This document shows positions 10,029-30,890 of a stretch of DNA of 32,817 nucleotides, in pieces (position 1 is the first letter of the stretch; the number at the start of each line of letters is the position of its first letter). The DNA lies in assembly GCA_947176075.1 (NCBI GenBank), contig CAMWPG010000011.1:1-32817 (forward strand), in the 5' to 3' direction. Below the pieces are notes generated by a model. It was not told where the DNA came from, made no database searches, and saw only the letters and a list, made by a program, of their open reading frames with translations. The stretch is from an uncultured Ruminococcus sp. (lineage in GTDB: Bacteria; Bacillota; Clostridia; Oscillospirales; Ruminococcaceae). A program made the position numbers and the translations under genes.

Positions 10029-10107
10029 GTTACTCGCTCCTCTGATAATCGCACTACAGCGTCGGCAAGGAGTATTCCCGCTGTTTTGGGTGCAGCTTTT
10101 CCGGGAA
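10025..10107 (-). CDS. dpaA: dpaA 3' end (last 25 codons), separated by the inserted element
   Basis: In the frame ending at the TGA at 10025, the residues GKAAPKTAGILLADAV are the conserved C-terminal part of dipicolinate synthase subunit A (Bacillus SpoVFA has a similar PG..APKTAG motif). No start belongs to it. It is the tail of the gene whose first 265 codons lie at 14846-15635. Both parts are in the same frame across the shared TTCC: 790 + 83 nt = 873 nt, i.e. 290 codons plus stop. It overlaps dpaB by ATGA. Left of the crossover, the same frame runs into element DNA that overlaps the recombinase 3' end. Confidence 0.9.
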
Positions 10108-10126
10108 CGGATAGTGCAGGATGACA
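10104..10126. other. attL: left junction of the dpaA-interrupting element
   Basis: The shared core GGAA (TTCC on the - strand) is at 10104-10107. The arm CAGGATGACA at 10117-10126 is inverted relative to the arm at the other end of the element. Left of the core is dpaA sequence, and right of it is element sequence. The recombinase stop codon is only 2 bp beyond the arm. The extent of the functional site is inferred. Confidence 0.8.
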
Positions 10127-10128
10127 CA

Positions 10129-11463: not shown

Positions 11464-11496
11464 ACGATCACCTCGTTAAATAATATGCAAAACGGC

Positions 11497-11527
11497 AAAA
11501 AAAAAGCACCCTCCCGAAGGAGGATGC
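11497..11527 (-). terminator. Rho-independent terminator after the cohesin gene
   Basis: On the - strand the hairpin GCATCCTCC-TTCG-GGAGGGTGC (one mismatch, tight tetraloop) is followed by nine T residues. It ends the dockerin-cohesin transcript 34 nt before the recombinase start. It should therefore insulate the recombinase from the strong upstream promoter. Confidence 0.93.
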
Positions 11528-11578
11528 CTTAATTCAGATGTTAGTCTGTATTAGTCTTAGAGTTTCTCTTAGGAGAAA

Positions 11579-12457
11579 TTACTTTCTCTTCTTAGCAACC
11601 AGAGCTACGCCGCCGATTACAACCAGAGCAGCAGCTGCACCAGCTACAGGCAGAACATCGCTTGTCTTAGGTGAAGATGTTGTGCCGCCAGTTGGCTTAG
11701 CAGTTGTTGTTACTGTAGTAGTTGTTGTTGTTGGAGTTGTAGATGTAGTAGTTGTAGATGTTGGAGTTGTAGATGTTGGAGTTGTAGATGTTGGAGTTGT
11801 AGATGTAGTTGTTGTTGTTGTTGGAGTTGTAGATGTAGTTGTAGTTGTTGTAGTTGTAGTAGTTGTAGTAGTTGTTGTAGTTGTTGTAGATGTTGTATCA
11901 CCCTTGATGATGATAGCACCATTTACCAGAGCAGGAACATCTGTACCAGCAGGTGTTTTAATCATAGACTTTTCTTCATCACCCTCAAAGTTTACGATTG
12001 TGAATACATCGCCTTCCTTAGCATTGCTTGTTACTGTGAAGTTGAGGTTCAAAACAACACCATCTGAAATAATTTCATCACCTGCAACCTGCATGATAGT
12101 TGCACCGCACCACATTCTACCAGCATCAGCATTAACAACAGGAACGTTAAGAGCTGTATAGCCATTACCAAGAGCTTCAATAATAGCACCGCCGCTTACG
12201 CACTTATCAAGAGTCAGCTCAGATGTATTATATGTTACACCATAGCCAAGCTCAAGCCAGCCGCCTGTACCAGACAGTGTCATAGGAACAGTAACCTTAT
12301 AATTAGCAGCCTTCAGTTCATCAAGTGTCAGTTCAATAGTACCAATAGTATACGTACCAGTTACAGCATCAGCTGGAATTGCAAATACAGCTGCAGAAGC
12401 AGCAACTACGGCAACTGCAGAAATAGCAGCAATGCTCTTCTTAAATGTAGTCTTCAT
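11579..12457 (-). CDS. Single-cohesin cell-surface scaffoldin-like protein
   Basis: A 292-aa protein with a signal peptide (MKTTFKKSIAAISAVAVVAASA, cleavage near AIPADA) and one cohesin-like beta domain (about residues 33-190; GYGVTYNTSELTLDK and the LNFTVTSNAKEGDVFTI pattern). A long Thr/Pro-rich linker (about 195-255) follows, then a C-terminal sorting-like end: PKTSD, a hydrophobic helix of about 20 residues, and KKRK. The signal resembles LPxTG-type sorting signals but has KTS rather than KTG. It probably anchors a dockerin-bearing protein on the cell wall. AAAGGA precedes the ATG. It is the second gene after the dockerin protein on the same transcript and lies inside the dpaA element. 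Confidence 0.85.
   Translation of the reverse strand: MKTTFKKSIAAISAVAVVAASAAVFAIPADAVTGTYTIGTIELTLDELKAANYKVTVPMTLSGTGGWLELGYGVTYNTSELTLDKCVSGGAIIEALGNGYTALNVPVVNADAGRMWCGATIMQVAGDEIISDGVVLNLNFTVTSNAKEGDVFTIVNFEGDEEKSMIKTPAGTDVPALVNGAIIIKGDTTSTTTTTTTTTTTTTTTTTTSTTPTTTTTTSTTPTSTTPTSTTPTSTTTTSTTPTTTTTTVTTTAKPTGGTTSSPKTSDVLPVAGAAAALVVIGGVALVAKKRK
11700..11895. repeat. Thr-codon tandem repeats encoding the cohesin-protein linker
   Basis: Simple-sequence tract of GTT/TGT-type codons that includes consecutive 15-nt units TTGGAGTTGTAGATG (encoding STTPT units on the - strand). It is prone to slippage, so linker length may vary between strains. Confidence 0.85.
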
Positions 12458-12499
12458 TTTAATTAATTCCTTTCAAATATAAAATTTATTTTGATACAG

Positions 12500-12521
12500 C
12501 CGGCGTAATGTAATACGCCGG
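12500..12521. repeat. 8-bp hairpin between the dockerin and cohesin genes
   Basis: CCGGCGTA-ATGTAA-TACGCCGG. No T-run follows on the - strand, so it is unlikely to be a full terminator. It may stabilise the upstream mRNA segment or attenuate transcription into the cohesin gene. Confidence 0.6.
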
Positions 12522-12542
12522 TTATATGCGTACCTTTTTTAA

Positions 12543-14501
12543 TTAGCCAATAATCTCAGACCAAACTGGATTCTGACCTGCACCAGACTTACCATAGTAA
12601 GTCAAAATGTTTGTAGCATCAGAAATATCAAGTCTGCCATCATTGCTGTTCTTACCAGCCTTAGACTCTGTATCTACATCTGCGAGGAAGTATGCCAGAA
12701 CATTCAGATCTTCATCGTCATTCAGAGTTATTTCCTGTCCAACACCAGAATGACCATAGTAAGTCAGAACCAGTGTAGCATCAGCAATCTCAACATGACC
12801 GCTAAGATCTGTATCACCCTTAACACCGATGTAAACGATCGGGTTATCAGTTACTGTAAGATCAGCATTATCAGCAACATTCATTGTTTCGCCCGGAACA
12901 AATGTAAGCTTAAGCTCACTTGCAACATATGCTGTACCCTCTACACTGTTGAAATAATCAGCAGGAGTAGCAAATGCAGGCTTCAGGTAATTATTATAAT
13001 GTGTTGGTGAGATCTTTACTGTGTAAGCCTCATCATGAAGAGTACCAACCAGTGTCAGGCTATTAACCAATCCAGCCAGATCAAATGCATTCTCATCATG
13101 TGAGAAATAGTAACCCTTACCGGCTTCAACTTCTATACTTTCCAGAATAAAATCAACCGGAACAATACTATCTGTTGTGTCAGATGTATCTGATGTTGAT
13201 ACTGTAGTAGTTGTTGTTGTGCTGTCAGATGTATCTGATGTTGATACTGTAGTAGTTGTTGTTGTACTGTCAGATGTACTTGATGATGTTGTTGTAGTTG
13301 TTGTTGTACTGTCAGATGTAGTAGTTGTTGTAGTTGTTGTTGTAATCTCAACATCCTTGAGAATTATTTCTCTTTTTACATCGAAGTAAGCAACACCATC
13401 ATTAATATCTCCTCTTGCCTCAACAATCTTATAGGAAGAATCATATGCCTTGCCTTCTTCAGCATTTGCATTTACATATTCCTCAACCTCAGCAGCTTCA
13501 GCATCAGAGATCTGGAATGATACAGCATATGTACCATTACTTACTATCACTTCAAAATTAGAACCTTCCTTTGCAAGTGCAGCAACATCATTAGCTGTTA
13601 CATTAAGTGTGTAGCCATTTGTTACAACAATATCATTCAGAAGATCAACAACCTTATTGAAGTCGCTGCCATGTCTCTGAACAGCCTCGTCAACAGAAGC
13701 AGGAACAGTATAAACCTTAGTCTTTTTTGCAACGTACTTAGACACAGCTGCCAGCATTTCATCAGCTGTTGCATAAGAACCTGACTTATTAAGATCAGCA
13801 GCCTTTTCCTTAAGCTCTTGAGCCCTATCAAGCTTTGCAAGAAGCTCAATATTCAGTGCATTAGCCACATCATCAGAAACAACATCTACCTGAGCAGCAA
13901 CAGAATCAGCCAATTCCTTAGCCAGACCCTTGAAATATGCAGCAGGTGCAAGTCCGATGTCTGTACCGTCAGATGTCAATGTGCATTCAACGTCAATTTC
14001 CTTTCCAGATTCCAGAGCATTAGCATCAAAAGAAACAGTGAATTCAACAGTCTTATTGAATGCATCCATTGTTACTGTGCCTGTATAGCCCTCTTTTGCA
14101 AGAGCCTTACGAACCTTGGAGTAAACCTTAGATTCTGCATAATTTGTCATGTCAGCTGTTGCCTTTACAGTAACAATGCCGTCTTTTACAGTCAGAACTG
14201 GGTTTGCTGCTTCGTCCATGATTTCCTTTGCCATAACTGCATAAGAATTGTTTTCAGGAAGCATTGCCAGGAAATCATCCTTAGTAATTTCCTTCTGTGT
14301 ACCTTCCATAGATGTTGCTACAGCAAGCATCTTAGTATTCCACTCAGACTCGATCTTATCTGCTGGAATAGCTGTGAAAGTATCCAGGGAAAGTGTCTTA
14401 GCACTGGCATCTTCTGCAGAAATATTCATAATAGCGCCCTGTGTAAGCACCATTGGAACAGCAATTGCAGCAGCCATGACTCTGTTAAGAATCTTCTTCA
14501 T
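12543..14501 (-). CDS. Secreted dockerin-bearing protein with repeat-rich linker
   Basis: A 652-aa secreted protein. I start at the ATG at 14501 because GAGG lies 9 nt upstream; the ORF-track TTG two codons earlier is too close to it. A signal peptide (MKKILNRVMAAAIAVPMVL, then NISAED) is followed by an Ala/Lys-rich region of unknown fold to about residue 385. Next is a Thr/Ser/Asp linker with a 15-residue repeat TTTTTTVSTSDTSDS. A beta-rich X-like module leads into a C-terminal dockerin with DTDLSGHVEIADA and DVDTES...DGRLDISDA calcium loops. The second loop carries an extra ESKAGKNSN-type insertion. No catalytic motif is recognised. It is cotranscribed with the cohesin protein, its possible partner, from a consensus promoter. 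Confidence 0.85.
   Translation of the reverse strand: MKKILNRVMAAAIAVPMVLTQGAIMNISAEDASAKTLSLDTFTAIPADKIESEWNTKMLAVATSMEGTQKEITKDDFLAMLPENNSYAVMAKEIMDEAANPVLTVKDGIVTVKATADMTNYAESKVYSKVRKALAKEGYTGTVTMDAFNKTVEFTVSFDANALESGKEIDVECTLTSDGTDIGLAPAAYFKGLAKELADSVAAQVDVVSDDVANALNIELLAKLDRAQELKEKAADLNKSGSYATADEMLAAVSKYVAKKTKVYTVPASVDEAVQRHGSDFNKVVDLLNDIVVTNGYTLNVTANDVAALAKEGSNFEVIVSNGTYAVSFQISDAEAAEVEEYVNANAEEGKAYDSSYKIVEARGDINDGVAYFDVKREIILKDVEITTTTTTTTTSDSTTTTTTTSSSTSDSTTTTTTVSTSDTSDSTTTTTTVSTSDTSDTTDSIVPVDFILESIEVEAGKGYYFSHDENAFDLAGLVNSLTLVGTLHDEAYTVKISPTHYNNYLKPAFATPADYFNSVEGTAYVASELKLTFVPGETMNVADNADLTVTDNPIVYIGVKGDTDLSGHVEIADATLVLTYYGHSGVGQEITLNDDEDLNVLAYFLADVDTESKAGKNSNDGRLDISDATNILTYYGKSGAGQNPVWSEIIG
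13178..13345. repeat. 45-nt tandem repeats in the dockerin-protein linker
   Basis: The unit beginning TGTCAGATGTATCTGATG recurs at 13178 and 13223, with a partial copy at 13268 (period 45 nt, 15 codons). It encodes the Thr/Ser/Asp linker. The near-identity of the copies suggests recent duplication and possible length variation. Confidence 0.85.
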
Positions 14502-14660
14502 TTCCAATTACCTCTCTTTATAAAATTTTTTTTGTGCCCTTTCGCTTTGCATACGTGATCGCAACTGTAAATTCTCATAAATTTACTCGTCTGCCAATCT
14601 CAGAACACCATGTATCATCAGTTACAGCGCACGGTGCATGAGCAGCTATAATCGATTTAC
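14502..14660 (-). other. Long 5' leader of the dockerin-cohesin transcript
   Basis: From the predicted transcription start to the ATG is about 160 nt. It contains a 7-bp hairpin GTAAATT/AATTTAC (14567-14586) and ends in an A/T-rich stretch with the ribosome site. I see no known riboswitch and only very short ORFs. Together with the promoter and the attR-proximal A/T-rich DNA, it fills the 315-nt gene-free stretch 14508-14822. Confidence 0.5.
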
Positions 14661-14666
14661 AAAAGT

Positions 14667-14695
14667 ATTTTAACATATTCCAGCCGGAATGTCAA
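14667..14695 (-). promoter_or_regulatory. Consensus sigma-A promoter for the dockerin-cohesin genes
   Basis: On the - strand a perfect TTGACA, 17-nt spacer and TAAAAT. It lies inside the element near attR, so the cargo genes have their own vegetative promoter independent of the dpaA promoter. Confidence 0.88.
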
Positions 14696-14820
14696 GTGAT
14701 TAATCGCATTTTTTTTAAAATTTCTAAAGTAATATTTTTCCCATTTTTAGTGCTTTTACACAATTACGGGGATTTTTTCCTTTTTTTGCAGCTCATCAGC
14801 GCTTATCTTTAATATATTTA

Positions 14821-14845
14821 TGTCATCCTGACACTGCCGCTGGAA
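14821..14845. other. attR: right junction of the dpaA-interrupting element
   Basis: The arm TGTCATCCTG at 14821-14830 is the inverse of the attL arm, and the shared core GGAA is at 14842-14845. To the right of the core the sequence is dpaA codons for WASGLP. To the left the dpaA frame reads five foreign residues and stops at 14823. Confidence 0.8.
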
Positions 14846-15635
14846 GCCCTGATGCCCACACATATTTGCGTCCAGTTTCCTCTATAATTTTTTTATCTGC
14901 ACCTCCCGGCGCTGATGCAAGCTCTATAAATACACATTCCTTTTTAAGACACATTATATCAGCGATCCCAAAAATCTCCGCCGGCACTGTATTGAAAATT
15001 ATATCAATTTCTGAAAGAACGCTTTTTTCAGGCAATATTTTTGCTGCATTAGCGCCCATTGCTTTTATTTTCATTCTATCGCACGTCTTACGAGCCGATG
15101 CTGTCACGTCTGCACCCAGCTTTATAAGTCTGTCAGTCAGGATCATTCCTATCCTGCCGTAACCTGTCACTAAAACTTTACTTCCCCAGATGGTTCTTTC
15201 CGTTTCTTCCATAGCTATTTTCAACGCTGCCTCAGCGGTCGGAACTGCATTTGCAATAGCAAGAGCTTCATCCTCCATATAGTTAAATATACTCAGTCCC
15301 AGCTCATTTGCAGCCTGCTCTGCCGCTCTACCATTTATTCCCATAAAAACTACGCTGTCTTCTTTTATTTTATCCATTATATCCTGTACTTTTATTTCCT
15401 CTGCTCCAAATGGAGCATTTATTCTGCCTTTATTGTCTGTAACCACCGGCGGAAGAAGCAGTATATCTGCTTTATCTGACGTCCCTTTAAATTTTCTGAA
15501 AATCATTTGCTCTTCTTTCGGAAGCTTTTCCTCTGAATACCCCACAAGTTCTACATCATAAATATCCGACAGCCTTGCAGCCGCATAAAGCATTCTGATA
15601 TCTCCGCCGGCAATAAGCAGTTTCTTTTTATCCAT
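14823..15635 (-). CDS. dpaA: Dipicolinate synthase subunit A, N-terminal 265 residues (interrupted gene)
   Basis: DpaA (SpoVFA) is the NAD(P)-binding oxidoreductase-like subunit of dipicolinate synthase, acting in the mother cell late in sporulation. The ORF is 270 aa, ending WASGLP plus five element-encoded residues (AAVSG). Visible features are an N-terminal AGGDIRMLYAA segment and a Rossmann motif VTGYGRIG (about residues 156-163). IELASAPGG also matches the family. The missing C-terminus, GKAAPKTAG onwards, is at 10025-10107 beyond the element, and the joined gene is 290 codons. The start ATG has GGAG 8 nt upstream. A sigma-K-like promoter lies about 40 nt upstream. As it stands, the product lacks its conserved tail and is probably inactive until the element is removed. 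Confidence 0.93.
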   Translation of the reverse strand: MDKKKLLIAGGDIRMLYAAARLSDIYDVELVGYSEEKLPKEEQMIFRKFKGTSDKADILLLPPVVTDNKGRINAPFGAEEIKVQDIMDKIKEDSVVFMGINGRAAEQAANELGLSIFNYMEDEALAIANAVPTAEAALKIAMEETERTIWGSKVLVTGYGRIGMILTDRLIKLGADVTASARKTCDRMKIKAMGANAAKILPEKSVLSEIDIIFNTVPAEIFGIADIMCLKKECVFIELASAPGGADKKIIEETGRKYVWASGLPAAVSG

Positions 15636-17660: not shown

Positions 17661-18887
17661 TTATTTTCCTGCAACAAAATCATCAAATGTTCCGCTTATT
17701 ATACCTGCCGCTTTTCCTGAATAATATTCCAGTATAAGTGTAGCGTCCTCTATATTAACACTGCCATCCTTATTGCTGTCAGCAGCAAGCGCATTCACTC
17801 CAGTGATCTCTGGTGCTTTTCCGACAGCATTTGACGCATAAATAGTCAACGCAGCTGTAGCATCATTAATATTCACAGCGCCGTCAGCATCGACATCTCC
17901 ATAACTGTTTTTCAAGACTCTTCCCAGTATTCCGTTATTTATAGCAGGGTCAACTCCTGCAAGTGTATTTTCAGCACCCGACAGTGTATATGCCCTGCGC
18001 ATAAGAGTACCGCATTCACTTCCTGTTTCAGGAATATCAAGAGTTTCTATAATTGATTCTGCAATTGCAAGATGCCCCTTGCTGTTAGGATGAACATCAA
18101 CATTTTTTATATGCGTGTAAAAATATGAATGATTGGCAAATGTTACAAACGTATCGACTATCGATGGTCCTGTAAGGCCTCTTATAATATCATTTACACC
18201 GCCGTCTATAGGATAAAGAGTATTATCAGGCTTTCCTTCAAGATAACTGTTAACATTTGCACAAAGTACTGTCATTGAACCGCTTGAGGCAAGTGCGGTA
18301 TTATCATTTTTCAGATCCATAGGATTATATACAGTCTGAAAAACAATTCTTGCAGATGTCATTGAACTAAGCTGCTCTGTCAGCTGCTGTATATTCGCAT
18401 TGCAGTTTTTAATAGCATCAGGCATAAATGAATTTAACTTCGTTTGAAGAGCAATAGAATAGAATAGATCCTTATCACTCTCTGCCTTTATAGCTGCTAT
18501 AAGCTCTGTCATAGTATTATATTTTGAAGCATCTATAAATTCATTATTCAGAACCGGTTTCATAATATCATTGCCGCCTATTGTTATAAGAACAATATCC
18601 GCATCAGCAATTTCGCTCTGAACTGCCGGATCTGAAATCTTAGATAAAAGCTCTGCGCTGGTCATGCTGTCCTCAGCAAAGTTTACAAGCTCCGCACCAT
18701 AGTAACTGCTCACAAGCTGCGGATATGATGCTATCAAAGAACCATCCATTGAATAACCATTTGTAATACTATCACCAAGTGCAACGATCTTCATTGCATC
18801 GTCTGCGCTCGCATCAAATGCCATTGAAGTCATCCCCAGAATGACTGAAGCAAATGCAGCTGCATATTTCAAAGTTTTGTTTTTCAT
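17661..18887 (-). CDS. Secreted SGNH/GDSL esterase with C-terminal dockerin
   Basis: A 408-aa secreted hydrolase. A signal peptide (to about ASADD, residue 30) is followed by an SGNH domain: block I ALGDSITNGY with Ser40, block III GGND (104-107) and block V DVHPNSKGH with Asp264/His266. All catalytic residues are present. The dockerin (about 335-398) has two canonical calcium loops, DVDADGAVNINDA and DSNKDGSVNIEDA. Family role: carboxylester hydrolysis, for example removal of acetyl groups from polysaccharides; the true substrate is unknown. The dockerin implies docking to a cohesin-bearing complex. GGAAGGA precedes the ATG, and a perfect sigma-A promoter lies upstream. It is outside the dpaA element. 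Confidence 0.92.
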   Translation of the reverse strand: MKNKTLKYAAAFASVILGMTSMAFDASADDAMKIVALGDSITNGYSMDGSLIASYPQLVSSYYGAELVNFAEDSMTSAELLSKISDPAVQSEIADADIVLITIGGNDIMKPVLNNEFIDASKYNTMTELIAAIKAESDKDLFYSIALQTKLNSFMPDAIKNCNANIQQLTEQLSSMTSARIVFQTVYNPMDLKNDNTALASSGSMTVLCANVNSYLEGKPDNTLYPIDGGVNDIIRGLTGPSIVDTFVTFANHSYFYTHIKNVDVHPNSKGHLAIAESIIETLDIPETGSECGTLMRRAYTLSGAENTLAGVDPAINNGILGRVLKNSYGDVDADGAVNINDATAALTIYASNAVGKAPEITGVNALAADSNKDGSVNIEDATLILEYYSGKAAGIISGTFDDFVAGK

Positions 18888-19922: not shown

Positions 19923-19951
19923 ATTATACCATAGCAATGGTCATTTGTCAA
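19923..19951 (-). promoter_or_regulatory. Perfect sigma-A promoter for the aquaporin gene
   Basis: On the - strand TTGACA, 17 nt, TATAAT. It gives a leader of roughly 35-40 nt. Confidence 0.9.
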
Positions 19952-20012: not shown

Positions 20013-20927
20013 CTAACCTGCCAATCCAGAGCGTTCTATTCCTTCGGTAAAATACTTCTGGAGAAAAATGTACATAATAAGTATTGGCATAACGGCAAGC
20101 AGGCAGCCTGCTTCAAGCCATACGACCTGTTCACGAACGCTTACATCTAAGCCTTGAAAAATCGTTTGAGAAAGCAAACTGCTTAAATTTTTAAGGCTGA
20201 GCGCTATTGTCTGATTTTTATCAAAAAATACAGAGCTTACATAGAAATCATTCCAGTACCATACAATGGAAAACAGAAACACTGTAAGCAGCGGCGGCCG
20301 TGCATTAGGCAGCATCACAGTAAAAAATGTCCTTACTGCGCCGCAGCCGTCAAGATATGCCGCATCCTCAAGCTCCGCAGGCATTCCTCTAAAAAACTGA
20401 CGGAATATAAATATCATAAGTCCAGATTTTATACCGCATCCCATAGCCGCCGGAATATACATACATAATGGATTGTTAATAAGATTAAAAGGTCCAAAAT
20501 GTCGAAAGATCATATACTGAGGAATTGCTGTCACCTGCACCGGTACAAGTATCATCATTATAACTATCCCAAAAAGCAGTCCTCTTCCTTTGAATCTGAA
20601 CCTTGCAAATCCATAGCCTGTTACTGCGCACGATATAACCTGTAAAAGGCAGCAGCCTATATTAAGAAAAAATGTTCTGCAAAGAGTTTTCCAGTAATCC
20701 ATTATCTCCATAGTTTCTCTGATAACGCTCAACGTCAAATGCTTAGGTATCCATATAACCGTAGGATCGCTCATATCCTCCGGCATACGAAAAGCACAGC
20801 TTATCATGTAAATAAGCGGATAAATTATGATAAATCCCAGCCCTAACAATATCAAAAAACGGACAATACGCCATATCGCACTGCTAATCGCCTGTCTGCT
20901 TACAATAATTTTACCAAATCCTTTCAT
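20013..20927 (-). CDS. Carbohydrate ABC transporter permease, MalG type (second pair)
   Basis: A 304-aa binding-protein-dependent permease with six helices and the EAA loop (EDAAYLDGCGAVRTFFTVMLP) that contacts the ATPase. The loop and the short C-terminal tail place it in the MalG/CUT1 group. Its ATG overlaps the stop of the preceding permease (TAATG). It is the last gene of the eight-gene operon; no strong terminator follows. Substrate unknown. Confidence 0.9.
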   Translation of the reverse strand: MKGFGKIIVSRQAISSAIWRIVRFLILLGLGFIIIYPLIYMISCAFRMPEDMSDPTVIWIPKHLTLSVIRETMEIMDYWKTLCRTFFLNIGCCLLQVISCAVTGYGFARFRFKGRGLLFGIVIMMILVPVQVTAIPQYMIFRHFGPFNLINNPLCMYIPAAMGCGIKSGLMIFIFRQFFRGMPAELEDAAYLDGCGAVRTFFTVMLPNARPPLLTVFLFSIVWYWNDFYVSSVFFDKNQTIALSLKNLSSLLSQTIFQGLDVSVREQVVWLEAGCLLAVMPILIMYIFLQKYFTEGIERSGLAG

Positions 20928-21817
20928 TATTCTACCTCATAGTAAACAAATTTATTTATTATAGCTGAAATAATACCAACCGCTGCAAGGACTATGGCGA
21001 AATATATCCACGCCATAGCAGAAGCTTCTCCATACTTCCAATCCATCTGCATATCAAGAATCCTGCACATTACAGAATTATCCGTATCAGTGAACGAATC
21101 TATAAAAGTGAAAATAAAGCAGGCTAAAAATACAGGACCTACTCCCGGCAAAAGCACCTTCCAGAAATAATCCCATCCGGAAGCTCCTTCTATCTGCGCT
21201 GCTTCTCTTGCTGAAGCCGGTATATTCTGAATTGCTGCCAAAAACATCAGTATCTGTATTCCTGCTTTCCATATGATGCCGAAAATATCATTTGCTATCG
21301 CCTCTGCCGCCAGAGCAGCCTGCTCAGAAATACCATATATATCAAAATATCTCATAAGACTATTCAGAAGATCTGCTGAAATCATAGTGGAATAGCCGCC
21401 GCCGTCGTTTCCAGTACTTGCCATATTTCCACTGATTATATTGTATATCGGTCCTGCTGCAATTATAACAGGAAGGAAAAATACTGCTCTTGCAAATGTC
21501 CTGCCACGGAATTTTTGGCTAAGCAGCATTGCTGTAAACAAAGACAAAAGCATTATAAGCGGCGTTTTCCAAAGCGTCTCTTTCAGCACCTGTATAAGAT
21601 ATGTTCGATAATTCGGATCCTCATTCAGTGCGTAATTATACTTTTCAAGTCCTGCAAAGCTGCCTGTCATCCCGCCTGTATCGGGGCGTATATCAAAGAA
21701 TGAATATATAAACGATTGTATAAGAGGCAGCATAAAAAAAACAAGAGAGCCTATAAGCCATACAGATATAAATCCAAAGCCCTGCATATCTTTTCTTTTT
21801 TGAAAGCTAAGCTTCAT
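20927..21817 (-). CDS. Carbohydrate ABC transporter permease, MalF type (second pair)
   Basis: A 296-aa CUT1-type permease with an EAA loop EGASGWDYFWKVLLPGVGP. I start at the ATG at 21817, 5 nt after the stop of the DUF5696 gene; the longer ORF-track start would overlap that gene by 60 nt. GGAG lies within the end of the upstream gene. It pairs with the MalG-type gene that follows directly. A second permease pair sits at the head of the same operon. Confidence 0.9.
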   Translation of the reverse strand: MKLSFQKRKDMQGFGFISVWLIGSLVFFMLPLIQSFIYSFFDIRPDTGGMTGSFAGLEKYNYALNEDPNYRTYLIQVLKETLWKTPLIMLLSLFTAMLLSQKFRGRTFARAVFFLPVIIAAGPIYNIISGNMASTGNDGGGYSTMISADLLNSLMRYFDIYGISEQAALAAEAIANDIFGIIWKAGIQILMFLAAIQNIPASAREAAQIEGASGWDYFWKVLLPGVGPVFLACFIFTFIDSFTDTDNSVMCRILDMQMDWKYGEASAMAWIYFAIVLAAVGIISAIINKFVYYEVE

Positions 21818-21822
21818 AAGAA

Positions 21823-24012
21823 TCACTCTCCATTTGACGAAGTATCGCAAAGATAGTATTCCTGCCCGTCTGCTGTAACAGAGCATTTTTCAAGATCCAC
21901 TATTATCTCAATACCGCCCTCATATTCAGTATAAATTTTATTACCGGATCTTTTATATGCTGTGATAAACTTTCCCTCCACTTGGGACAGTATCTTTTCT
22001 GAAAACAAAAAATCCTGTGCTGCCTGCTGCGTCCAACTGTCGTAATAAGTATAGTAAAGATGCTCCAGCTCTGTACCGCTGATGATCTGCACATTTTCAC
22101 CTATCATATCATAATGCGGATTGCTCCCCGATGCCATTGCAAGAAGCAGAAGCTCTCTGCGGTCGGCACTGCCATTTATAGGTTCAGTTGAATATGACTT
22201 TAATCCATGCAAAACCATCTGATAAAACGGTATGTCCTCGTCAAAGATATCATATCCGCTCGAACAAAGCGGCACATTATTTATCCTATCTGCATATGGC
22301 AGAACATAAGCATTAGCTTCATCCGCAAGAATGCTGTCTGTGCAGTCTTCAAGCATTTTAAGTCCGTCTGTAAGCAGCTGCTGCGCTTCATCCCTCGAAA
22401 TTTCCCTGCTGCCATAGTCACCGCATAACATGGTAGTAAGCTCCGACAAACATATATTATCTATACCGTTTTTCTTTAGATTGCACGACAGATTTTCAAA
22501 AACCTCTGGATACTCAGCCGGCGATAAAATCGACAATGATTTTTTATTCATATTCTTACTGCCGCTGACAATGTTATAATCATAAAGAGATGCATATTCA
22601 CCCGATATGCGCCTTGAAGCATTACTTATTGCCCTATAGCCGCTGCCGGAGCTGAACGCCGCATTCTGCACAGAAGGATAAAACGCAACGCCATTCAATG
22701 CTGAATACTCAGCAAGATTATAAAATTCATCTGCGCCTATAGATTTCGACACCTCGGCTTTTGTATCTATTCTGTTTTTTATGCCATCGTCTGTCCATTT
22801 ATTAAAGCTCACTACCATATTTGAAATACCTGCATTTTTCAAGGTTTCTATTATATCACTTGCCTGAGATGCTGTCGTAAGCGGTGTTTTCATTGTTATC
22901 GGAATACCTAAGAATGAGCGCTTTTTTAAAACAGCTCCATAAAAATCAACATAAAGCTCCGCAGGCGGTGTCTCTGTCCTTATGACATTCATTTCTTTTA
23001 TAAGATATTCCCGATATGCTCTCGCAATATCTACAGGCTCTGCTGCGTTATTATCCGTACCCTCTACCGGATAATAGCGCAAGGATATTCTGTCCGTCTT
23101 TATATTTCCGCTTTCAAACACCGTAATGGCATTTACCATATCTCCTGACATATAATAAGTATCGCTGCCTCTTAGAATAAAATCAAAGCTGCAAAGATTA
23201 TAGCTGCTTTTTGATACACCGCTCACGCTGGCATTGAGTCTTGCGTTTGAGTCGCCTCTGGTGCACACTGTCATAAGTCCGCTGCATCCGCTGATTATAC
23301 CGTACATGGGCAGATATATCTGCTTTGTATTATCTATAGTTTCAAGCGGTGCAGCTGCCGTATCCCTGCCATAAACCATACCTGAATAGCTCTTTGAATT
23401 TATTTTGCCATTATTGAAGTTTATAACAGCTCCGCAGCCATCGGGAATAATAAAGCACCCATTATCATCCGCTCCGGCAGCACCAAAGCTGCTCATGATC
23501 GAAAGCTCAGTAAGCAGTCTGCCATCATTGGTTTCTTTTATATCAGCTGTTTCAACCGAAGCTTCAAGGTAATTTTCACCTATTGTAAACCTTACCGGAA
23601 TAGTTATTCCTGCCTTTTTAAACTCGTAGATCATCTCTACTCCGTTATTTATATCCTTTATCTTAACAGACGCACTGGTTTTAGAGCAAAGTCTCGTATC
23701 AGAACGTTTTTCAGGCTCACAATAAGTAATGCAAAGCGGTGAGCTAAGCTCTGATATGACGACATTTGAAGCCAGCGAATCATTTTCAGCATTTTCAGGG
23801 CATGACCGCCATGTGGTCCCTGATGTCTTATCAGTAAGAAATATTTCCCCATTTTCATCGTTTACATAAAGCGCAAGGCGTTTATTCTCCGCAGCAATAC
23901 GGAATTTTTCCTCTTTTGTAATATTTGCTGCAAAAACAGGTATATGAAAAATATTAAAAATAACAATTGCCGACAATAAAACCACGACGATGATATAAAT
24001 ACGTTTTCTCAT
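21823..24012 (-). CDS. DUF5696-family extracytoplasmic protein
   Basis: A 729-aa protein with an N-terminal signal/anchor helix (about residues 5-28, ending VFAANI). It matches what I recall of DUF5696 proteins, which occur beside sugar-type ABC permeases in Firmicutes. The N-terminal half looks beta-rich (DKTSGTTWRSCPENA, FIIPDGCGAVINFNNG). The second half has alternating strands and helices (YVDFYGAVLKKRSF, SNMVVSFNKWTDDG, VAFYPSVQ) resembling a glycosidase-like barrel. That is inference, and no catalytic pair can be named. It sits between the YIP1 gene and the second permease pair, so a role in handling the transported glycan is plausible. GGAG is 12 nt before the ATG. Confidence 0.8.
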   Translation of the reverse strand: MRKRIYIIVVVLLSAIVIFNIFHIPVFAANITKEEKFRIAAENKRLALYVNDENGEIFLTDKTSGTTWRSCPENAENDSLASNVVISELSSPLCITYCEPEKRSDTRLCSKTSASVKIKDINNGVEMIYEFKKAGITIPVRFTIGENYLEASVETADIKETNDGRLLTELSIMSSFGAAGADDNGCFIIPDGCGAVINFNNGKINSKSYSGMVYGRDTAAAPLETIDNTKQIYLPMYGIISGCSGLMTVCTRGDSNARLNASVSGVSKSSYNLCSFDFILRGSDTYYMSGDMVNAITVFESGNIKTDRISLRYYPVEGTDNNAAEPVDIARAYREYLIKEMNVIRTETPPAELYVDFYGAVLKKRSFLGIPITMKTPLTTASQASDIIETLKNAGISNMVVSFNKWTDDGIKNRIDTKAEVSKSIGADEFYNLAEYSALNGVAFYPSVQNAAFSSGSGYRAISNASRRISGEYASLYDYNIVSGSKNMNKKSLSILSPAEYPEVFENLSCNLKKNGIDNICLSELTTMLCGDYGSREISRDEAQQLLTDGLKMLEDCTDSILADEANAYVLPYADRINNVPLCSSGYDIFDEDIPFYQMVLHGLKSYSTEPINGSADRRELLLLAMASGSNPHYDMIGENVQIISGTELEHLYYTYYDSWTQQAAQDFLFSEKILSQVEGKFITAYKRSGNKIYTEYEGGIEIIVDLEKCSVTADGQEYYLCDTSSNGE

Positions 24013-24027
24013 AATTCAGGTGATCTC

Positions 24028-24657
24028 CTAATATTTCAATCTGTATTCTATCTCTGCAATGATCGTTGCCGCAAAGACGTAAATCTGCTGGATAAGCGCT
24101 GCTGCCAGCACGAGAATCAAAATAATAATAATCATTCCAGCAATTGTAAATAATATTGACAATACTGTTTTTGATACGCTTAATTGATGCGCCGCCTTTA
24201 TTCCTGTAAATATAAGCATTGCTGACCACAAAATTCCTATAACACCCGTAAGCGTTATAAATATTCCCTCGTCCCTAATAAGAATATGCGACAACATCAC
24301 TTGAACATAAAGGCTTACTGTATACGGTATAAGCGCATATGCACTGTAAATATATATTCTTCTTATAGTTCCCTCTCCGTCAAAAAAAGTGCAGACCGCA
24401 CGATTTGATACTGTCCATGCAAGAAACAAAAATACAGTTCTGATAATAAACGATAAAATGCTGAAGTCTTCCACAGATGTAATAACAAACTGCTTGCCGT
24501 AAAAATTTTCACGCAATATAGTTCCTGCAAACCACAGTGCTATTACGATATTGGATATTAAAATCGAACCAGCTTTTTTAAAGCGAAGATCCTCAAAGCC
24601 GTCAAACGGATGAAAGACAGTATGCAGCACCCACTGCTTTTCTGTAAGCTCAATCAC
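24028..24657 (-). CDS. YIP1-family membrane protein
   Basis: A 209-aa protein with about five hydrophobic helices and the Yip1-domain layout (FHPFDGFEDLRF near the start, then helices and YSAYALIPYTVS). The start is GTG at 24657, with GGAGG 10 nt upstream; it lies 6 nt after the NHL gene stop. YIP1 proteins commonly accompany DUF5696 and ABC permease genes in this type of operon. Its molecular function is unknown. Confidence 0.82.
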   Translation of the reverse strand: MIELTEKQWVLHTVFHPFDGFEDLRFKKAGSILISNIVIALWFAGTILRENFYGKQFVITSVEDFSILSFIIRTVFLFLAWTVSNRAVCTFFDGEGTIRRIYIYSAYALIPYTVSLYVQVMLSHILIRDEGIFITLTGVIGILWSAMLIFTGIKAAHQLSVSKTVLSILFTIAGMIIIILILVLAAALIQQIYVFAATIIAEIEYRLKY

Positions 24658-24663
24658 TATCTA

Positions 24664-26124
24664 TCATCCTCCTCTGTATCTGCGCAGCTTTTTTCTATAA
24701 TGCCTGTGAATAATACGCAAAATTATAAACACAGCTATAAAAGCTGATACAATAGAGAAATTTTTGCTGAGCCACTCAGCACGATAGCCTTCAAAGGCTT
24801 TATTGTAATGATAGGACGATCCGCCAAGCTCTGCATATTCCATTGCTCCTCTATAATCGCCCTTTCTCAGAAGCGCAGAGGATATCCCCAGATATGCTGC
24901 GGTATAATTACCATCACACCTCAAAGCTTCTTGCCACGGCTTCAAAGCCTCCTCGTACTTTCCGTCATTATAAAGCTTATCCGCATCATGTACTATTTTC
25001 CCAAAGTCCGTTTCCTCAAATATTGTAACAGTATTTTTCATGCTGTCCGTTATAAAAATCCTTTCGCCTGTACATTCAACAGCTGTTGGCTTTAGTGAAA
25101 ATCCTCCCAGACAATCGCTTCTGCCTCCCATTATAAACAACAGACTGCCTTCTTTATTATATTGAAAAACTCTGCCTGTACCTGTGTCCAAACAGCATAT
25201 TCTGCCTTCATTGTCAACATCTATATCAATAAGCTCAGTTTTGAAAACCTCACCTGAATCTGAATTCTGATACCTTGGCAGATCTCCGAATACTGTATCA
25301 ATTCCGGCAAAAAGATTCTTTCCGGCAGGATTCACCTTCTTAACACGATCGTGTCCGGCATCAGCTGAACCTGTTACAGTATAGACAAAGCCTTCTTTGT
25401 CTATATCAAAGCCTGTAATGCCAGCCGGAACACTTCTGGACATTGCACTTCTCATCTTATCTGTAGCAAACAGCTTCTTGATATAATCCGATATGACCTT
25501 TGCTGTCGGCAAAACGCTGCCTGCACCATAATAGCCCTCAAATTCTCCATCTCTGCTAAAAAACGCTGCACCTCCGGTAATATTATCAAGTATTGCGTAA
25601 ATGTTGCCATACTTGTCAGCTATTACCTTTTCAGGACGAAATGTTTCGCTTTCATACATATCTGAATCAGGTTTTGTAACAATAAGACTGACATTTCCGT
25701 CCATATCTGAAACAATAATCCTTGAGTTGCCGGTATCGGATATATACATCAAACCATCATCAGAAACAAATATTCCCTCAGGCGATGAAAGATTAAAACT
25801 TGCACCATTATTATCTGTAAATATGCTGTAAACCATAGAAGCTTTAGTAAAATCAGGATCGACCTCTATTATACGGTCATTACCCTTGTCTGCTATGAAG
25901 AAGCTGCCGCTGTCCGCACAAAAAATATCAGCCGGCTGACTAAGCTCTCCGCAGCCAAGCTCATTTCCATTTACCGCTTTGACTGCCCTGTATCCCGCTT
26001 GAGACGGCACTGCCTCACCATAAAAGTTATAGCTGTAGCTTCCTTCTGCGGATACATATGAAGCTTTTGACAAAAAAAACGCACAACACACAAAAGCCAA
26101 CGCAGCACCTGCATTTCCACGCAT
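24664..26124 (-). CDS. NHL-repeat/TPR surface protein with C-terminal membrane anchor
   Basis: A 486-aa protein. A signal peptide (to about YVSAEG) is followed by an NHL-type beta-propeller with repeated segments such as FIADKGNDRIIEVD, YISDTGNSRIIV and FITDSMKNTVTIFE (about 50-370). One or two TPR-like hairpins follow (AAYLGISSALLRKGDYRGAMEYAEL), and a transmembrane helix near the end (IVSAFIAVFIILRII) is followed by a basic tail. The propeller would face outside, consistent with ligand or protein binding. GGAG precedes the ATG. It lies between the first permease pair and the YIP1 gene. Exact role unknown. Confidence 0.82.
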   Translation of the reverse strand: MRGNAGAALAFVCCAFFLSKASYVSAEGSYSYNFYGEAVPSQAGYRAVKAVNGNELGCGELSQPADIFCADSGSFFIADKGNDRIIEVDPDFTKASMVYSIFTDNNGASFNLSSPEGIFVSDDGLMYISDTGNSRIIVSDMDGNVSLIVTKPDSDMYESETFRPEKVIADKYGNIYAILDNITGGAAFFSRDGEFEGYYGAGSVLPTAKVISDYIKKLFATDKMRSAMSRSVPAGITGFDIDKEGFVYTVTGSADAGHDRVKKVNPAGKNLFAGIDTVFGDLPRYQNSDSGEVFKTELIDIDVDNEGRICCLDTGTGRVFQYNKEGSLLFIMGGRSDCLGGFSLKPTAVECTGERIFITDSMKNTVTIFEETDFGKIVHDADKLYNDGKYEEALKPWQEALRCDGNYTAAYLGISSALLRKGDYRGAMEYAELGGSSYHYNKAFEGYRAEWLSKNFSIVSAFIAVFIILRIIHRHYRKKLRRYRGG

Positions 26125-26141
26125 AAAAAGTCACATCTCCT

Positions 26142-26978
26142 CTATTCTTTAAGCCCTGAATGAGCCATTGTTTCAATAACATGACGTTCTGCAAGCATGA
26201 ATATAATAACAGGCGGCACAAGCATAAACACTGCCGCTGCCATTGCAACGCCGGCTCTTGAAAGTCCTGCCGCTGATGCCTGCATGACCACAGTCGGAAG
26301 CGTTTTCAGAGATTCATCAAATATAACAGAACCTCCCTGAATATTCCAAGCAGCCTGAAATGTAAATATAACAAGAGTCATAAGAGCAGGCTTCTGATTT
26401 GGCATAACTACCTGCCAACATATACGAAAAAGTCCTGCTCCGTCTACCTTTGCAGATTCTATTACTGAATCAGGCATCTGACTTATAGCCTGACGCATCA
26501 AAAAAATACATATTGGAGACGCAGCCGCAGGAAGTATCAGCGCAGCAATTTTGTTCACAAGTCCCATTTTAGCAAGAACCATATACTGCATTATATAAAT
26601 GACATTACTTTGATAAAGAAGCGCTGCAACTATAAGTGCATTTATGAGCTTTGCTCCGGGGAATTTTACCTTTGCAAGACAGAATGCAGCCATTGAAGAA
26701 AAAACGACCTGCATAATCGTTACAGCCACAGTTACAAATACGCTGTTGAAAACATATCTCGAAAAAGGCACATGCTCGCCGCTGCAAATTCTGAACATTG
26801 CGGTATAATTTGAAAGCGTTGGCTCTGTCACATAAAGCTTTGGAGGAAATATAAACATCTCCTGAATCGGCTTCACAGACATTATTACAGTCAGATAAAC
26901 AGGCATTATCATAAAAAGCGCAAGAATTGCAAGAATAATAAATATTCCTATATTGCCCATCCTTTTCCGTGCTGTCAT
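26142..26978 (-). CDS. Carbohydrate ABC transporter permease, MalG type (first pair)
   Basis: A 278-aa CUT1-type permease with six helices and an EAA loop ESAKVDGAGLFRICWQVVMP. AAGGAG lies 7 nt before the ATG. It lies downstream of the MalF-type partner and upstream of the NHL/TPR gene. The substrate is unknown. Confidence 0.9.
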   Translation of the reverse strand: MTARKRMGNIGIFIILAILALFMIMPVYLTVIMSVKPIQEMFIFPPKLYVTEPTLSNYTAMFRICSGEHVPFSRYVFNSVFVTVAVTIMQVVFSSMAAFCLAKVKFPGAKLINALIVAALLYQSNVIYIMQYMVLAKMGLVNKIAALILPAAASPICIFLMRQAISQMPDSVIESAKVDGAGLFRICWQVVMPNQKPALMTLVIFTFQAAWNIQGGSVIFDESLKTLPTVVMQASAAGLSRAGVAMAAAVFMLVPPVIIFMLAERHVIETMAHSGLKE

Positions 26979-27014
26979 ATAGCTTCTCCTTTATAAAAAT
27001 TTATAGTGAAGGTG

Positions 27015-27920
27015 TCAGTCCATATATTTTCTGAGCAGCCTACCTACAAGCCTATTTAAAAAGTACATTACAACAAATAAAATCATACATATCGCAGAAG
27101 CATACCCCATCTCATAGCGTATCCATCCATAATCATAGGCGTGATTCATGATAGTATGCGCTTTATAGTCCGTACTCGGAAAGCCGAGAAGATTCTGCGA
27201 AACAGTGCCTGCTGCAAATGCACTTACTATCTGCATAACTGCCGCAAACATAAGCTGAGGTGTCATTGCAGGTATAGTTATATATATAAGCTCCTGCCAG
27301 CGATTCTTTATGCCCTCTATAGCTCCTGCCTCATACCATGTACGGTCTATATTTTGAAAGCCTGCACGAAGAGCCAGAAATCCTGTGCCAAGGCTTAAAT
27401 ACATTTGCACTACTATTGTAACTAAAAGCACATACCGCGCATCGGTAAGCCACTGAACAGGAGATGTTATAATGCCAGTGTTCAATAGAAATGCATTTAT
27501 ATATCCATGTGAATCACCGCTGAAGATCAGCTGCCAGACAGTATAAACACTGGACATTGAAGGTATGTAAAATATAAGGGTAAATATAGTTCTTAGCTTT
27601 GGTCTCATCTCATTTATAAGCCATGCGATCAGAAAGCAAAGCACATAGCTTACAGGTCCTGTGAATATAGCTGAAACAAGCGTTACACGCACTGATTGCA
27701 TGAATATCTTATCTGAAAGAAACAATGCGCTGTAATTGGAAAGCCCCACAAACTGCGGAAACTGCACCATATTAAAATCAGTAAATCCTATCGGCATCGA
27801 CATAAGCACAGGGATAATCGTAAACAGCGTAAAAAAAAGCATAAACGGCAGCAGCATAAGATATGCTGATTTATTTTTCTTTATAGAAACAAGTGTTTTT
27901 CTAAGCGGAGCATTATCCAA
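27015..27920 (-). CDS. Carbohydrate ABC transporter permease, MalF type (first pair)
   Basis: A 301-aa CUT1-type permease. The EAA loop is recognisable though less standard (EAGAIEGIKNRWQELIYITIP). The start is TTG at 27920, 10 nt after AAGGAGG; no ATG is available before residue 18, so a TTG start is likely. It follows the solute-binding protein gene by 17 nt and pairs with the MalG-type gene. Confidence 0.9.
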   Translation of the reverse strand: MDNAPLRKTLVSIKKNKSAYLMLLPFMLFFTLFTIIPVLMSMPIGFTDFNMVQFPQFVGLSNYSALFLSDKIFMQSVRVTLVSAIFTGPVSYVLCFLIAWLINEMRPKLRTIFTLIFYIPSMSSVYTVWQLIFSGDSHGYINAFLLNTGIITSPVQWLTDARYVLLVTIVVQMYLSLGTGFLALRAGFQNIDRTWYEAGAIEGIKNRWQELIYITIPAMTPQLMFAAVMQIVSAFAAGTVSQNLLGFPSTDYKAHTIMNHAYDYGWIRYEMGYASAICMILFVVMYFLNRLVGRLLRKYMD

Positions 27921-27937
27921 ACGCCTGCAACCTCCTT

Positions 27938-30775
27938 TTAATTTTTTCTCGCCATTTCCTTATTTATATCCCGATCATAACGCATAAGCGCATCTCTTGG
28001 ATTTTCACCGTTATTTACAACATCACGAAAAGCGTTCATTATATTTCTTGTAACTGCATATGACGATGGAAGTATAGGTATCTCCTCTGTCTGGAGCATA
28101 GTGCTTTCAAGAACGTCAAGCTCTTTTGCCGACCACTGCATCTGTCGGAGCGTCTCGGTATTGGCAGGTGCATATCTTCCAAGCTGTCCCATAAGTCCCT
28201 CTGTTTGCTGTGCGTATTTCGTCTGCACCTCTGATGAACAGAACCACTTTATATATTCCCATGCAGCTTCTGTCTTTTTCCTGTCATTATTTTTGAAGAT
28301 CACTGCGCCTGACCCAACGGAATTAACAGTATGTGAAATGCTGCCGTCTGCCAGCTGCGTTCCCGGAACAGATGTAAAATCCCATAAGCCGTTTATCTCC
28401 GGAGCGGCTGTACTGAGCTGATTGCAAAACGTATAATCTGCTATAACTATAGGATAATCTCCCGTACGAAAACGGCTGAATGCGTCATATTGCTGCGGCA
28501 GGCTGTATTTTGTATAAAAGCTTGTCCACTGTTCAAATGCACTAATGGCTTCATTTGTATAAAATGTAGTCCCTGTCTTTGAAGCATTATAGTAATTCAT
28601 GCCGTTTTGCAGCATAAGCACTGCAAATGTATGCCCTGTTTCAGTTACAGAAGATGCAAGTGCTGTACCGCCTGATACAGACTTCGCACCGGGCAGCACA
28701 AGTCCTGCGGACATATAATTTCTCTGCAAAATCGGAAGTATGTCTATAAGTTCCTGCCATGTCTCCGGCGGCGATGTGATGCCAAGACCGCTTAATATAT
28801 CCATTCGGCAGAACATTACTGCCCAGCTCCTTACAAGAGGTACGGCATATATATCGTCATTATACGTATACGGCACAAAGGCATTATTTGTATACATTTG
28901 AGATATTTGCTCAAAGCCCTGAAATTCTGATATATCCTCAAGAAGCCCACGGCTTCCAAGATTCACGGGTGTTTCTCCGCTGAGAAACAATGCTGCATCC
29001 GGTTCTTCATCTGCAAGGGCTGCTTCTACTATACCGCCCGATACAAGCTTTACCGAAACGGGAATACCTGTTTCCGTGATGAATTCTGATTCTGTAAGTT
29101 CTCTTACGACCTGTGCCTGTTCACGTCCCAGCTGCACCCACACCTCTATTCCATCGCTGTCGTCTATATTATTATCATCTTTTATAAACGAGGAGAGAAA
29201 TCTTTTAAAGCTGTAAGCTATGCGGCTGAAAAATCCGGCTTTTGTATCTGAAAAATCACTACTCTTTGATGCAAGCTCAATATAGTCTATCTCCAGCGGC
29301 TGATCTCGATAATCACGCATCCATGATGATATAGCCGCTGTACAGTCTTTTATCTGAGAAAGATAAGCAGGTATTCTTATTGGCGACTGAATGCACTTTT
29401 CAAGTATAACCGCCATATTTTCAAGCGAAGCAGCTTCTGATCCTTCTGAACCAGAAAGCAGCTCTATATCAGACTTTATCATTCTTAGATGACCGGATAT
29501 TCTTTCAAAGCTGTCTGTAAGTCCGGGTATCTTTTCATGAACATAATAATCAGTATATTTATCAGGCTGCGTGCCTGTTATCATAGCTATTCTGCGATAA
29601 TTTTCATTAAGCTCATATACTATATCCCCAAGCTGCTGTATATATGAGCCTATTACACCGGGAATAGCTTCCATTGTTAAGGTATGAGCTTCTCCGGCAG
29701 TAAGATATATATATATATCATCGCCATCCTCTGTTTTCACATCATTAAGCTCAAAGTCAGTGCTGTAATTAAAGCGAACCGCAGACATATCCTCACACGG
29801 AACCTCTCCGTCAATATAGAGCCTTCTGTTGGAGAAAAATCCACGCATTTCCTCCTGCCTTGCCTTTATGCCTATTTTGTACCATCCGTCATTTGGTACT
29901 TTAAACTCCCATGTGAGCGTTTGTCCTGATTTTTTGTAGCTGCCCTTTCCTATTGTGTTATATATAAGATGCCATGGATCAGACGGAGAAACATCGCAGC
30001 TGGAATTGTCATATGTAGGATACAAAATAGGTGACGACTTGTATTTTGCATTTTCTCCCTCTATCCGTACCAAAGCAGACGGAGTATCATCAGGAGACAC
30101 GCAGGCATTTATACCTGCGATATACTCCCCATAGGTTTTATATTTCTCCGGGCAGTGAAGCTTTATATATTCTATATCAATGCTTCCTCTCTGAACGTCA
30201 AGCTTTACGGTATGTCTGCCCTTTTCAAAATAAAAAATCAACGGCTCATTTTGCAGACCATCTGGATCCTTCAGATCTGTTTTCTGCTGAATCTCCACCT
30301 GCTCCTGAGCAGATCTTATCTCATCGCCATTCCTGTCCTTTTGAATAGCTTTTTCAGCCCTGTATACCTTATTGAGTCTCAGGCGCTGTGCGCTGTCAAA
30401 GGGAATATTCCCATCTATTTCCATTGAAAGCTCTATTTCAGCCGATGGCGATATAACAGGCAGATAGGAGATCTCAGCACAGTAAAGACCTGACCAAAGA
30501 ATATTCACCTCATATAAAAAGCTGTCATCTTCACGTCTAATCAGCGAAAGGCTTAATATATCTTCGGTATATTTTTCATTACTGTATTTTTCGGTGTATT
30601 CTCTATATGTAATATTCCCGCTGCTATAGATCGGCGATTTATTTTCTTCGTGTATTTCTGCCAGTGCAGGAGATATGTCTGTTTCAGCGGATACATGAAA
30701 ATGTGCCGCACCAGTCATCAGGCTAAGCGACGTTACTATGCTTATAAATGACATCATGTATTTTCCGCCAAACAT
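27938..30775 (-). CDS. Giant extracellular solute-binding protein with N-terminal carbohydrate-binding-like region
   Basis: A 945-aa protein, more than twice the usual 400-450 aa for a sugar-binding ABC component. The chosen start (ATG at 30775) has AAAGG 11 nt upstream, while the ATG at 30802 coincides with the predicted transcription start. A signal peptide (FISIVTSLSLMTGA) lacks a lipobox Cys. The N-terminal half is beta-rich with a CBM6/35-like section (VRIEGENAKYKSS, then WEFKVPNDGWYKIGIKA), followed by a helical stretch. The C-terminal ~400 residues (from about VWVQLGREQAQVV) form a family 1 binding protein with VIADYTF and AAWEYIKWFCSSE. First gene of the operon; it should deliver ligand to one or both permease pairs. 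Confidence 0.88.
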   Translation of the reverse strand: MFGGKYMMSFISIVTSLSLMTGAAHFHVSAETDISPALAEIHEENKSPIYSSGNITYREYTEKYSNEKYTEDILSLSLIRREDDSFLYEVNILWSGLYCAEISYLPVISPSAEIELSMEIDGNIPFDSAQRLRLNKVYRAEKAIQKDRNGDEIRSAQEQVEIQQKTDLKDPDGLQNEPLIFYFEKGRHTVKLDVQRGSIDIEYIKLHCPEKYKTYGEYIAGINACVSPDDTPSALVRIEGENAKYKSSPILYPTYDNSSCDVSPSDPWHLIYNTIGKGSYKKSGQTLTWEFKVPNDGWYKIGIKARQEEMRGFFSNRRLYIDGEVPCEDMSAVRFNYSTDFELNDVKTEDGDDIYIYLTAGEAHTLTMEAIPGVIGSYIQQLGDIVYELNENYRRIAMITGTQPDKYTDYYVHEKIPGLTDSFERISGHLRMIKSDIELLSGSEGSEAASLENMAVILEKCIQSPIRIPAYLSQIKDCTAAISSWMRDYRDQPLEIDYIELASKSSDFSDTKAGFFSRIAYSFKRFLSSFIKDDNNIDDSDGIEVWVQLGREQAQVVRELTESEFITETGIPVSVKLVSGGIVEAALADEEPDAALFLSGETPVNLGSRGLLEDISEFQGFEQISQMYTNNAFVPYTYNDDIYAVPLVRSWAVMFCRMDILSGLGITSPPETWQELIDILPILQRNYMSAGLVLPGAKSVSGGTALASSVTETGHTFAVLMLQNGMNYYNASKTGTTFYTNEAISAFEQWTSFYTKYSLPQQYDAFSRFRTGDYPIVIADYTFCNQLSTAAPEINGLWDFTSVPGTQLADGSISHTVNSVGSGAVIFKNNDRKKTEAAWEYIKWFCSSEVQTKYAQQTEGLMGQLGRYAPANTETLRQMQWSAKELDVLESTMLQTEEIPILPSSYAVTRNIMNAFRDVVNNGENPRDALMRYDRDINKEMARKN

Positions 30776-30808
30776 ACATATCACTGCCTTTCGATACTTC
30801 ATAAAAAT

Positions 30809-30838
30809 ATTATACCAAATCGTTTGTATTCTTGTCAA
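30809..30838 (-). promoter_or_regulatory. Sigma-A promoter of the eight-gene transport operon
   Basis: On the - strand a perfect TTGACA, 18 nt, perfect TATAAT. Transcription should start near 30802, which supports using the downstream ATG at 30775 for the binding protein. Confidence 0.88.
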
Positions 30839-30863
30839 GCTGCACAAGTGAATTTAATAAACT

Positions 30864-30890
30864 AAAGCCTCTCCGTTACGGAGAGGCTTT
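30864..30890 (-). terminator. Terminator hairpin after tadA
   Basis: AAGCCTCTCC-GTAAC-GGAGAGGCTT on the - strand followed by TAGTTTATT. It starts at the tadA stop codon and separates tadA from the transport operon promoter. Confidence 0.8.

Follow-up and report, generated by a model that had tools for sequence, protein, structure and literature searches.

A conserved eight-gene CUT1 cassette of Ruminococcus and other Bacillota, with two permease pairs and a probably non-catalytic GH129-like accessory protein

The window analysed here, a stretch of 32,817 nucleotides, is contig C11 of an assembly (2.07 Mb in 189 contigs, 84% complete) from an uncultured bacterium whose nearest named relatives are Ruminococcus. 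On its minus strand, from position 30775 down to 20013, lie eight head-to-tail genes separated by gaps of at most 36 bases, with one overlap, which judged from the DNA form one operon (Table 1); all eight open reading frames were found on that strand within 20013-30847. The operon has its own promoter, a strong hairpin closes the deaminase gene upstream, and the aquaporin gene downstream has a separate promoter; thus the operon is well bounded, to the extent that sequence can tell. This agrees with an earlier note on the same DNA, which had described eight genes behind one promoter and a binding protein of 945 residues starting at 30775. We likewise consider ATG 30775 a better start than the longest-frame start at 30847 (969 residues), because of where the promoter and the deaminase hairpin lie. 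The operon contains neither an ATPase gene nor xylanase genes, no enzymes adjoin it in the window, and the first gene after G2 is that for the aquaporin, with no binding protein of the axoE type (see below) at this place.

Table 1. Features of the operon and its borders in the window, in the direction of transcription
Feature	Position	Strand	Remarks
Terminator-like hairpin, 12 pairs, 3' end of upstream deaminase gene	30864..30890	-	strong
Operon promoter, TTGACA-18-TATAAT	30809..30838	-	12/12 matches, TG ahead of -10 box
SBP1 (XloE-like), 945 aa	27938..30775	-	hydrophobic N-terminus, two CBM35/CBM6-like modules, helical linker, MalE-type C-terminus (predicted)
F1, MalF-type permease, pair 1	27015..27920	-	
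G1, MalG-type permease, pair 1	26142..26978	-	
NHL propeller + TPR protein	24664..26124	-	C-terminal membrane helix
YIP1 multi-span membrane protein	24028..24657	-	
DUF5696 protein	21823..24012	-	signal/anchor helix, GH129-like beta domain and barrel (predicted)
F2, MalF-type permease, pair 2	20927..21817	-	21817 likely start; longest frame from 21886
G2, MalG-type permease, pair 2	20013..20927	-	
Promoter of aquaporin gene, downstream of operon	19923..19951	-	12/12 matches; marks operon end

Elsewhere in the window, genes for a serine recombinase (10129-11463) and two secreted proteins lie between that for dipicolinate synthase subunit A (14823-15635) and that for a flavoprotein resembling subunit B (9447-10127); in this region (9447-15635) an element may have entered a sporulation operon. 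The proteins encoded at 11579-14507 and 17661-18887 are secreted and carry Thr-rich linkers or dockerin-like repeats; the dockerin of the latter, a GDSL protein, is supported by Pfam, and the product of 12543-14507 gave a sub-threshold Pfam match to CttA_N.

The domains of the encoded binding protein and permeases support an operon of the uptake type, as had been proposed. Three of the permeases match Pfam BPD_transp_1 above the cut-off and the fourth (20927-21886) falls just below it (24.2 vs 26.4 bits); an EAA loop can be seen in each of them. With two MalF/MalG pairs carrying these loops, a MalE-type binding protein and a MalK-type ATPase with OB/TOBE domains, whose pairing with the cassette we infer, the system would count among the CUT1 importers. 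In SBP1, the Pfam SBP_bac_8 match is confined to the C-terminal third (residues 589-883 in the numbering of the 969-residue frame), and the predicted structure (pLDDT 84.7) shows a MalE-type fold at the C-terminus, with a beta-1,2-glucooligosaccharide binding protein among its best matches. Residues 78-398, used as a profile, matched the CBMs of a cycloisomaltooligosaccharide glucanotransferase (E=4e-8) and an exo-beta-glucosaminidase (E=6e-4), and 14 of 27 SBP1 members gave a Pfam CBM_35 match at E up to 0.1. SBP1 is therefore predicted to carry two CBM35/CBM6-like modules ahead of its MalE-type domain, an architecture new here, and these modules would probably keep polysaccharide or long fragments close to the pore.

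Between the two permease pairs lie three accessory genes, whose products gave Pfam matches to NHL and TPR, to Yip1 and, at E=1e-154, to DUF5696. All three had been taken as extracytoplasmic, which fails for YIP1, a multi-span membrane protein. NHL and YIP1 are fused into one protein in many loci of the phylum sample and in five of the family sample, and this predicted NHL/TPR-YIP1 protein, often seen in place of two, is likewise new here. Together with the CBM-like modules and an invariant gene order, the fusions make the larger surface assembly suggested by the earlier note plausible, if unproven; our literature search returned nothing on DUF5696, nor on YIP1 and NHL together with permeases.

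The DUF5696 protein has a predicted structure (pLDDT 89.3) whose best Foldseek matches are GH129 (5opq, E=1.5e-30) and then GH101; a profile search also found 5opq (E=2e-9), and alignment to two true GH129 proteins with hhalign gave E=1.9e-10. Its fold is thus like that of the GH129 glycosidases NagBb and ZgGH129, but the positions of their catalytic Asp and Glu are not conserved: in alignments of low identity, the position facing the nucleophile Asp is hydrophobic and variable, and that facing the acid/base Glu varies too. The best conserved acid, Asp191 (97%), stands ahead of the barrel, and no acid within the barrel, Asp532 and Asp591 included, is more than 80% conserved. These two observations tell against an active glycosidase that would couple trimming to import, a reading which the GH129 fold and the annotation of the Caldicellulosiruptor bescii counterpart as GH129 (PMC8579813) would favor and which we regard as unlikely. 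Since the catalytic positions of GH129 are not conserved, most DUF5696 members are probably not hydrolases, a conclusion of moderate weight at such low identity, and a GH129 fold predicted to lack conserved catalytic acids is new here.

Loci were fetched around DUF5696 or SBP1 hits in genomes of the same GTDB family and in named genomes. The full set of eight genes, in one order and on one strand, occurs in 101 of 126 loci, and the cassette is therefore conserved beyond chance; of the other 25 loci most are cut off by the end of the fetched stretch, not each one having been checked. Holders of the cassette include R. callidus ATCC 27760, R. flavefaciens FD-1 and R. flavefaciens YAD2003. Full-type DUF5696 occurs in 62 of the 199 genomes of the family sample and DUF5696 in 37 of the 399 genomes of the phylum sample, where most of twenty loci, from several families of Bacillota, carry the same gene set. 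Conservation of gene order in other Firmicutes, the check that the earlier note had proposed, is thus found both in the family and well beyond it. One locus with a weak DUF5696 match (L067) has no cassette, and in another (L244:3862-6721) an IS-like transposase frame on the opposite strand divides the cassette's G1 into two parts. The diverse alignment A2 gave no usable motif when scanned; the closer alignment A3 did work.

The architecture of the cassette is already published as the core of the xylan-degradation operon of the hot-spring bacterium C. bescii (also named Anaerocellum bescii), xloEFG-X-GH129-axoFGE-xynF-xynE-xynD-xyn10A-xynX-xynB, which is induced on xylan (PMC8579813, Table 3). 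This locus corresponds to Athe_0174-0185 (PMC8579813, PMC12285236), with a XynR operator before Athe_0174 and 14 target genes (PMC12285236), and normal growth on xylan requires the shared ATPase MsmK (PMC8579813). Both operons run SBP1-F1-G1, X, a GH129-type protein and F2-G2, and both would depend on an unlinked shared MsmK-type ATPase; they differ in that X is one gene in C. bescii and two in the window (NHL/TPR and YIP1), and in that axoE after G2 and the xylanases are absent from the window. Two of our loci, L243 and L250, match the C. bescii order and continue with GH43, GH10, GH39, GH10, esterase, GH39 and GH10, their GH10 being closest to the xylanases 6d5c and 5ofj; L243, which appears to be from Caldicellulosiruptor, also has an axoE-like second binding protein after G2. 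The avi locus of C. bescii (Athe_0594-0598) was considered as a counterpart and rejected, as only a permease pair, two binding proteins and an endoglucanase are reported there and it is the xylan locus that agrees gene by gene. The cello-oligosaccharide importer Athe_0595-0598 (PMC12838199) is comparable in that one permease pair, powered by MsmK, works with two or more binding proteins whose ligand ranges differ; its binding-protein genes, however, adjoin the permease, and none for NHL, YIP1 or DUF5696 is reported there (PMC12838199). This kind of cassette is known in one thermophile. New with respect to the papers searched are how general it is, the NHL-YIP1 unit, the GH129-type protein, which is probably dead, and the likely supply by binding proteins in trans.

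How, then, might two permease pairs in one operon be served? In the tree, the F1, G1, F2 and G2 families form one clade each, four in all, and the two pairs are therefore old and have been inherited together. The earlier note had assigned one giant binding protein to both pairs, which would make them alternative pores behind a single receptor, and in the window lineage the operon indeed encodes no binding protein but SBP1. Such sharing is nonetheless improbable in our view: the pairs are separate and ancient, and many relatives have a second binding protein next to F2/G2. Relatives in which both pairs have a binding protein to themselves were what the earlier note had named as refuting it, and many such exist. 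This SBP2, an ordinary binding protein of roughly 400-660 residues found beside many divergent copies of the cassette, stands after G2 (L032, L033, L035, L036, L062, L064, L065, L235, L237, L239, L240, L241, L243, L244), before SBP1 (L034, L230, L231, L232) or before NHL-YIP1 (L242, L245), and adjoins most cassettes outside Ruminococcus and some paralogous ones. No adjacent SBP2 exists in the window lineage, but the window genome (G000) does hold a stand-alone one: PF01547 is found in two of its proteins, SBP1 and a 491-residue lipoprotein (G000:C8:22463-23938) flanked by housekeeping genes, with no permease nearby. Leaving aside the stand-alone group, this lipoprotein is matched best by SBP2s encoded next to a cassette, and it did not match the binding protein of the genome's C4 CUT1 operon or the SBP1 domain. 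One binding protein for two pairs thus probably does not hold.

Stand-alone SBP2-type proteins number up to seven in relatives of the window genome, and among the permeases listed none is closer than 5 kb to any of the 59 such proteins of 18 genomes. Across the 199 family genomes, this SBP type is present in 49 of the 62 with DUF5696 and in 8 of the 137 without it (Fisher p=6e-26, a value that overstates the evidence, the genomes sharing ancestry and the association being confounded by it). The 13 cassette genomes without the stand-alone type include three (G001, G099 and G178) in which a cassette has an adjacent one. Neighboring stand-alone SBP2-type genes form arrays at G010:C5:31385-42730 and G166:C11:11204-15926, with no permease listed on either contig. 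A member of the same genus (G027, 99% complete) has no DUF5696 or SBP1, yet carries three SBP2-type proteins and is an exception to supply in trans.

A further reading is that the four permeases and the accessory proteins would build one larger importer for long chains. The invariant order and the NHL-YIP1 fusion would fit such a machine, as would three loci (L242, L245, L249) in which the two modules stay together although the halves are swapped (NHL-YIP1, DUF5696, F2, G2, then SBP1, F1, G1). ABC importers, however, consist of two membrane domains and two ATPase domains, and we know of no precedent for a single importer with four permeases; moreover, some genomes keep the modules at separate loci (L235, L236, L240), where SBP1 is not adjacent and 4 to 6 SBP1 matches occur elsewhere in the genome. 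We hold this reading to be improbable as well.

With no ATPase gene in the operon, energy would have to come from elsewhere, as the earlier note had assumed in proposing a shared MsmX-like protein. The window genome encodes a single OB_MalK ATPase (G000:C3:40291-41406; domains ABC_tran, OB_MalK and TOBE_2), unlinked to the cassette and lying in a 16-kb stretch without a permease. Only three CUT1 permease pairs were found in this genome, two of them in the cassette, and the third, C4, has no ATPase beside it either. Because there is one unlinked MalK and the C4 pair likewise lacks its own ATPase, a shared MalK/MsmX-type ATPase is the simplest reading, and it supports the proposal. Among 33 genomes, one OB_MalK ATPase was found in 28 and two in 5 (window genome included; one of the second copies weak); in the window genome, 84% complete, further binding proteins, permeases or ATPases could be missing. 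Shared ATPases are established for CUT1 importers, as MsmX in B. subtilis (PMC5730181) and as MsmK in S. pneumoniae (PMC3302838) and C. bescii (PMC8579813), and these importers resemble the cassette in having MalF/MalG-type permeases without an ATPase of their own and an unlinked MalK-type one; the cassette differs in its two pairs per operon, three accessory proteins, 945-residue binding protein and stand-alone binding proteins. In some relatives (L040, L044, L048, L049, L050, L051, L056, L060, L069, L143, L144, L149), SBP1 is immediately preceded, on its own strand, by one or two LolD-like ABC ATPases; the one nearer to SBP1 has a C-terminal MazE/AbrB-like domain, and no obvious partner permease was seen beside them in about a dozen relatives. 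We considered them as dedicated ATPases and rejected them as the general answer, since neither the window nor its genus-mate G139 has one ahead of the cassette and genomes that do have them keep the unlinked MalK.

We therefore favor, at a probability of roughly 0.68, two CUT1 importers for plant-cell-wall oligosaccharides that would share a membrane-bound accessory module. Importer 1 would consist of SBP1-F1-G1; importer 2, F2-G2, would probably be supplied in trans by stand-alone SBP2-type lipoproteins, here the one on contig C8, and the single unlinked MalK/MsmX-type ATPase would power both. The three accessory proteins, NHL/TPR, YIP1 and the GH129-like and probably non-catalytic DUF5696, may contact them as a surface scaffold or glycan-presenting subunit. 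It is tempting to go further for Ruminococcus and to see in F2-G2 a hub, one pair and one ATPase serving one to seven or more dispersed binding proteins by turns, with NHL/TPR-YIP1 and dead GH129-like proteins as the docking platform; we put this forward tentatively, at less than even odds. That the cassette is instead a sensor gating fibrolytic gene expression, and not a bulk importer, seems very unlikely to us. Sensory proteins often contain propeller and TPR domains, and no enzymes adjoin the operon in the window, but no conserved regulator or kinase was found beside the cassette, and the permeases keep their EAA loops for ATPase coupling. As to the substrate, on which like the purpose the earlier note had offered nothing, the analogy with the transporter core of the xylan-induced C. 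bescii operon (PMC8579813) goes part of the way and points to plant-wall, xylan-type oligosaccharides. The substrate may have shifted here, because no xylanase genes adjoin the cassette in the window.

Ruminococci are major fibre degraders of the rumen and the human gut, and little is known about their uptake of the sugars set free. The cassette, with its three uncharacterised surface or membrane proteins, is spread across the Bacillota and is genetically reachable in C. bescii. It would show whether Gram-positive importers come with dedicated modules on the surface that play a part like that of the Sus complexes in Bacteroidetes, and whether a single permease is shared by binding proteins whose genes lie elsewhere in the genome.
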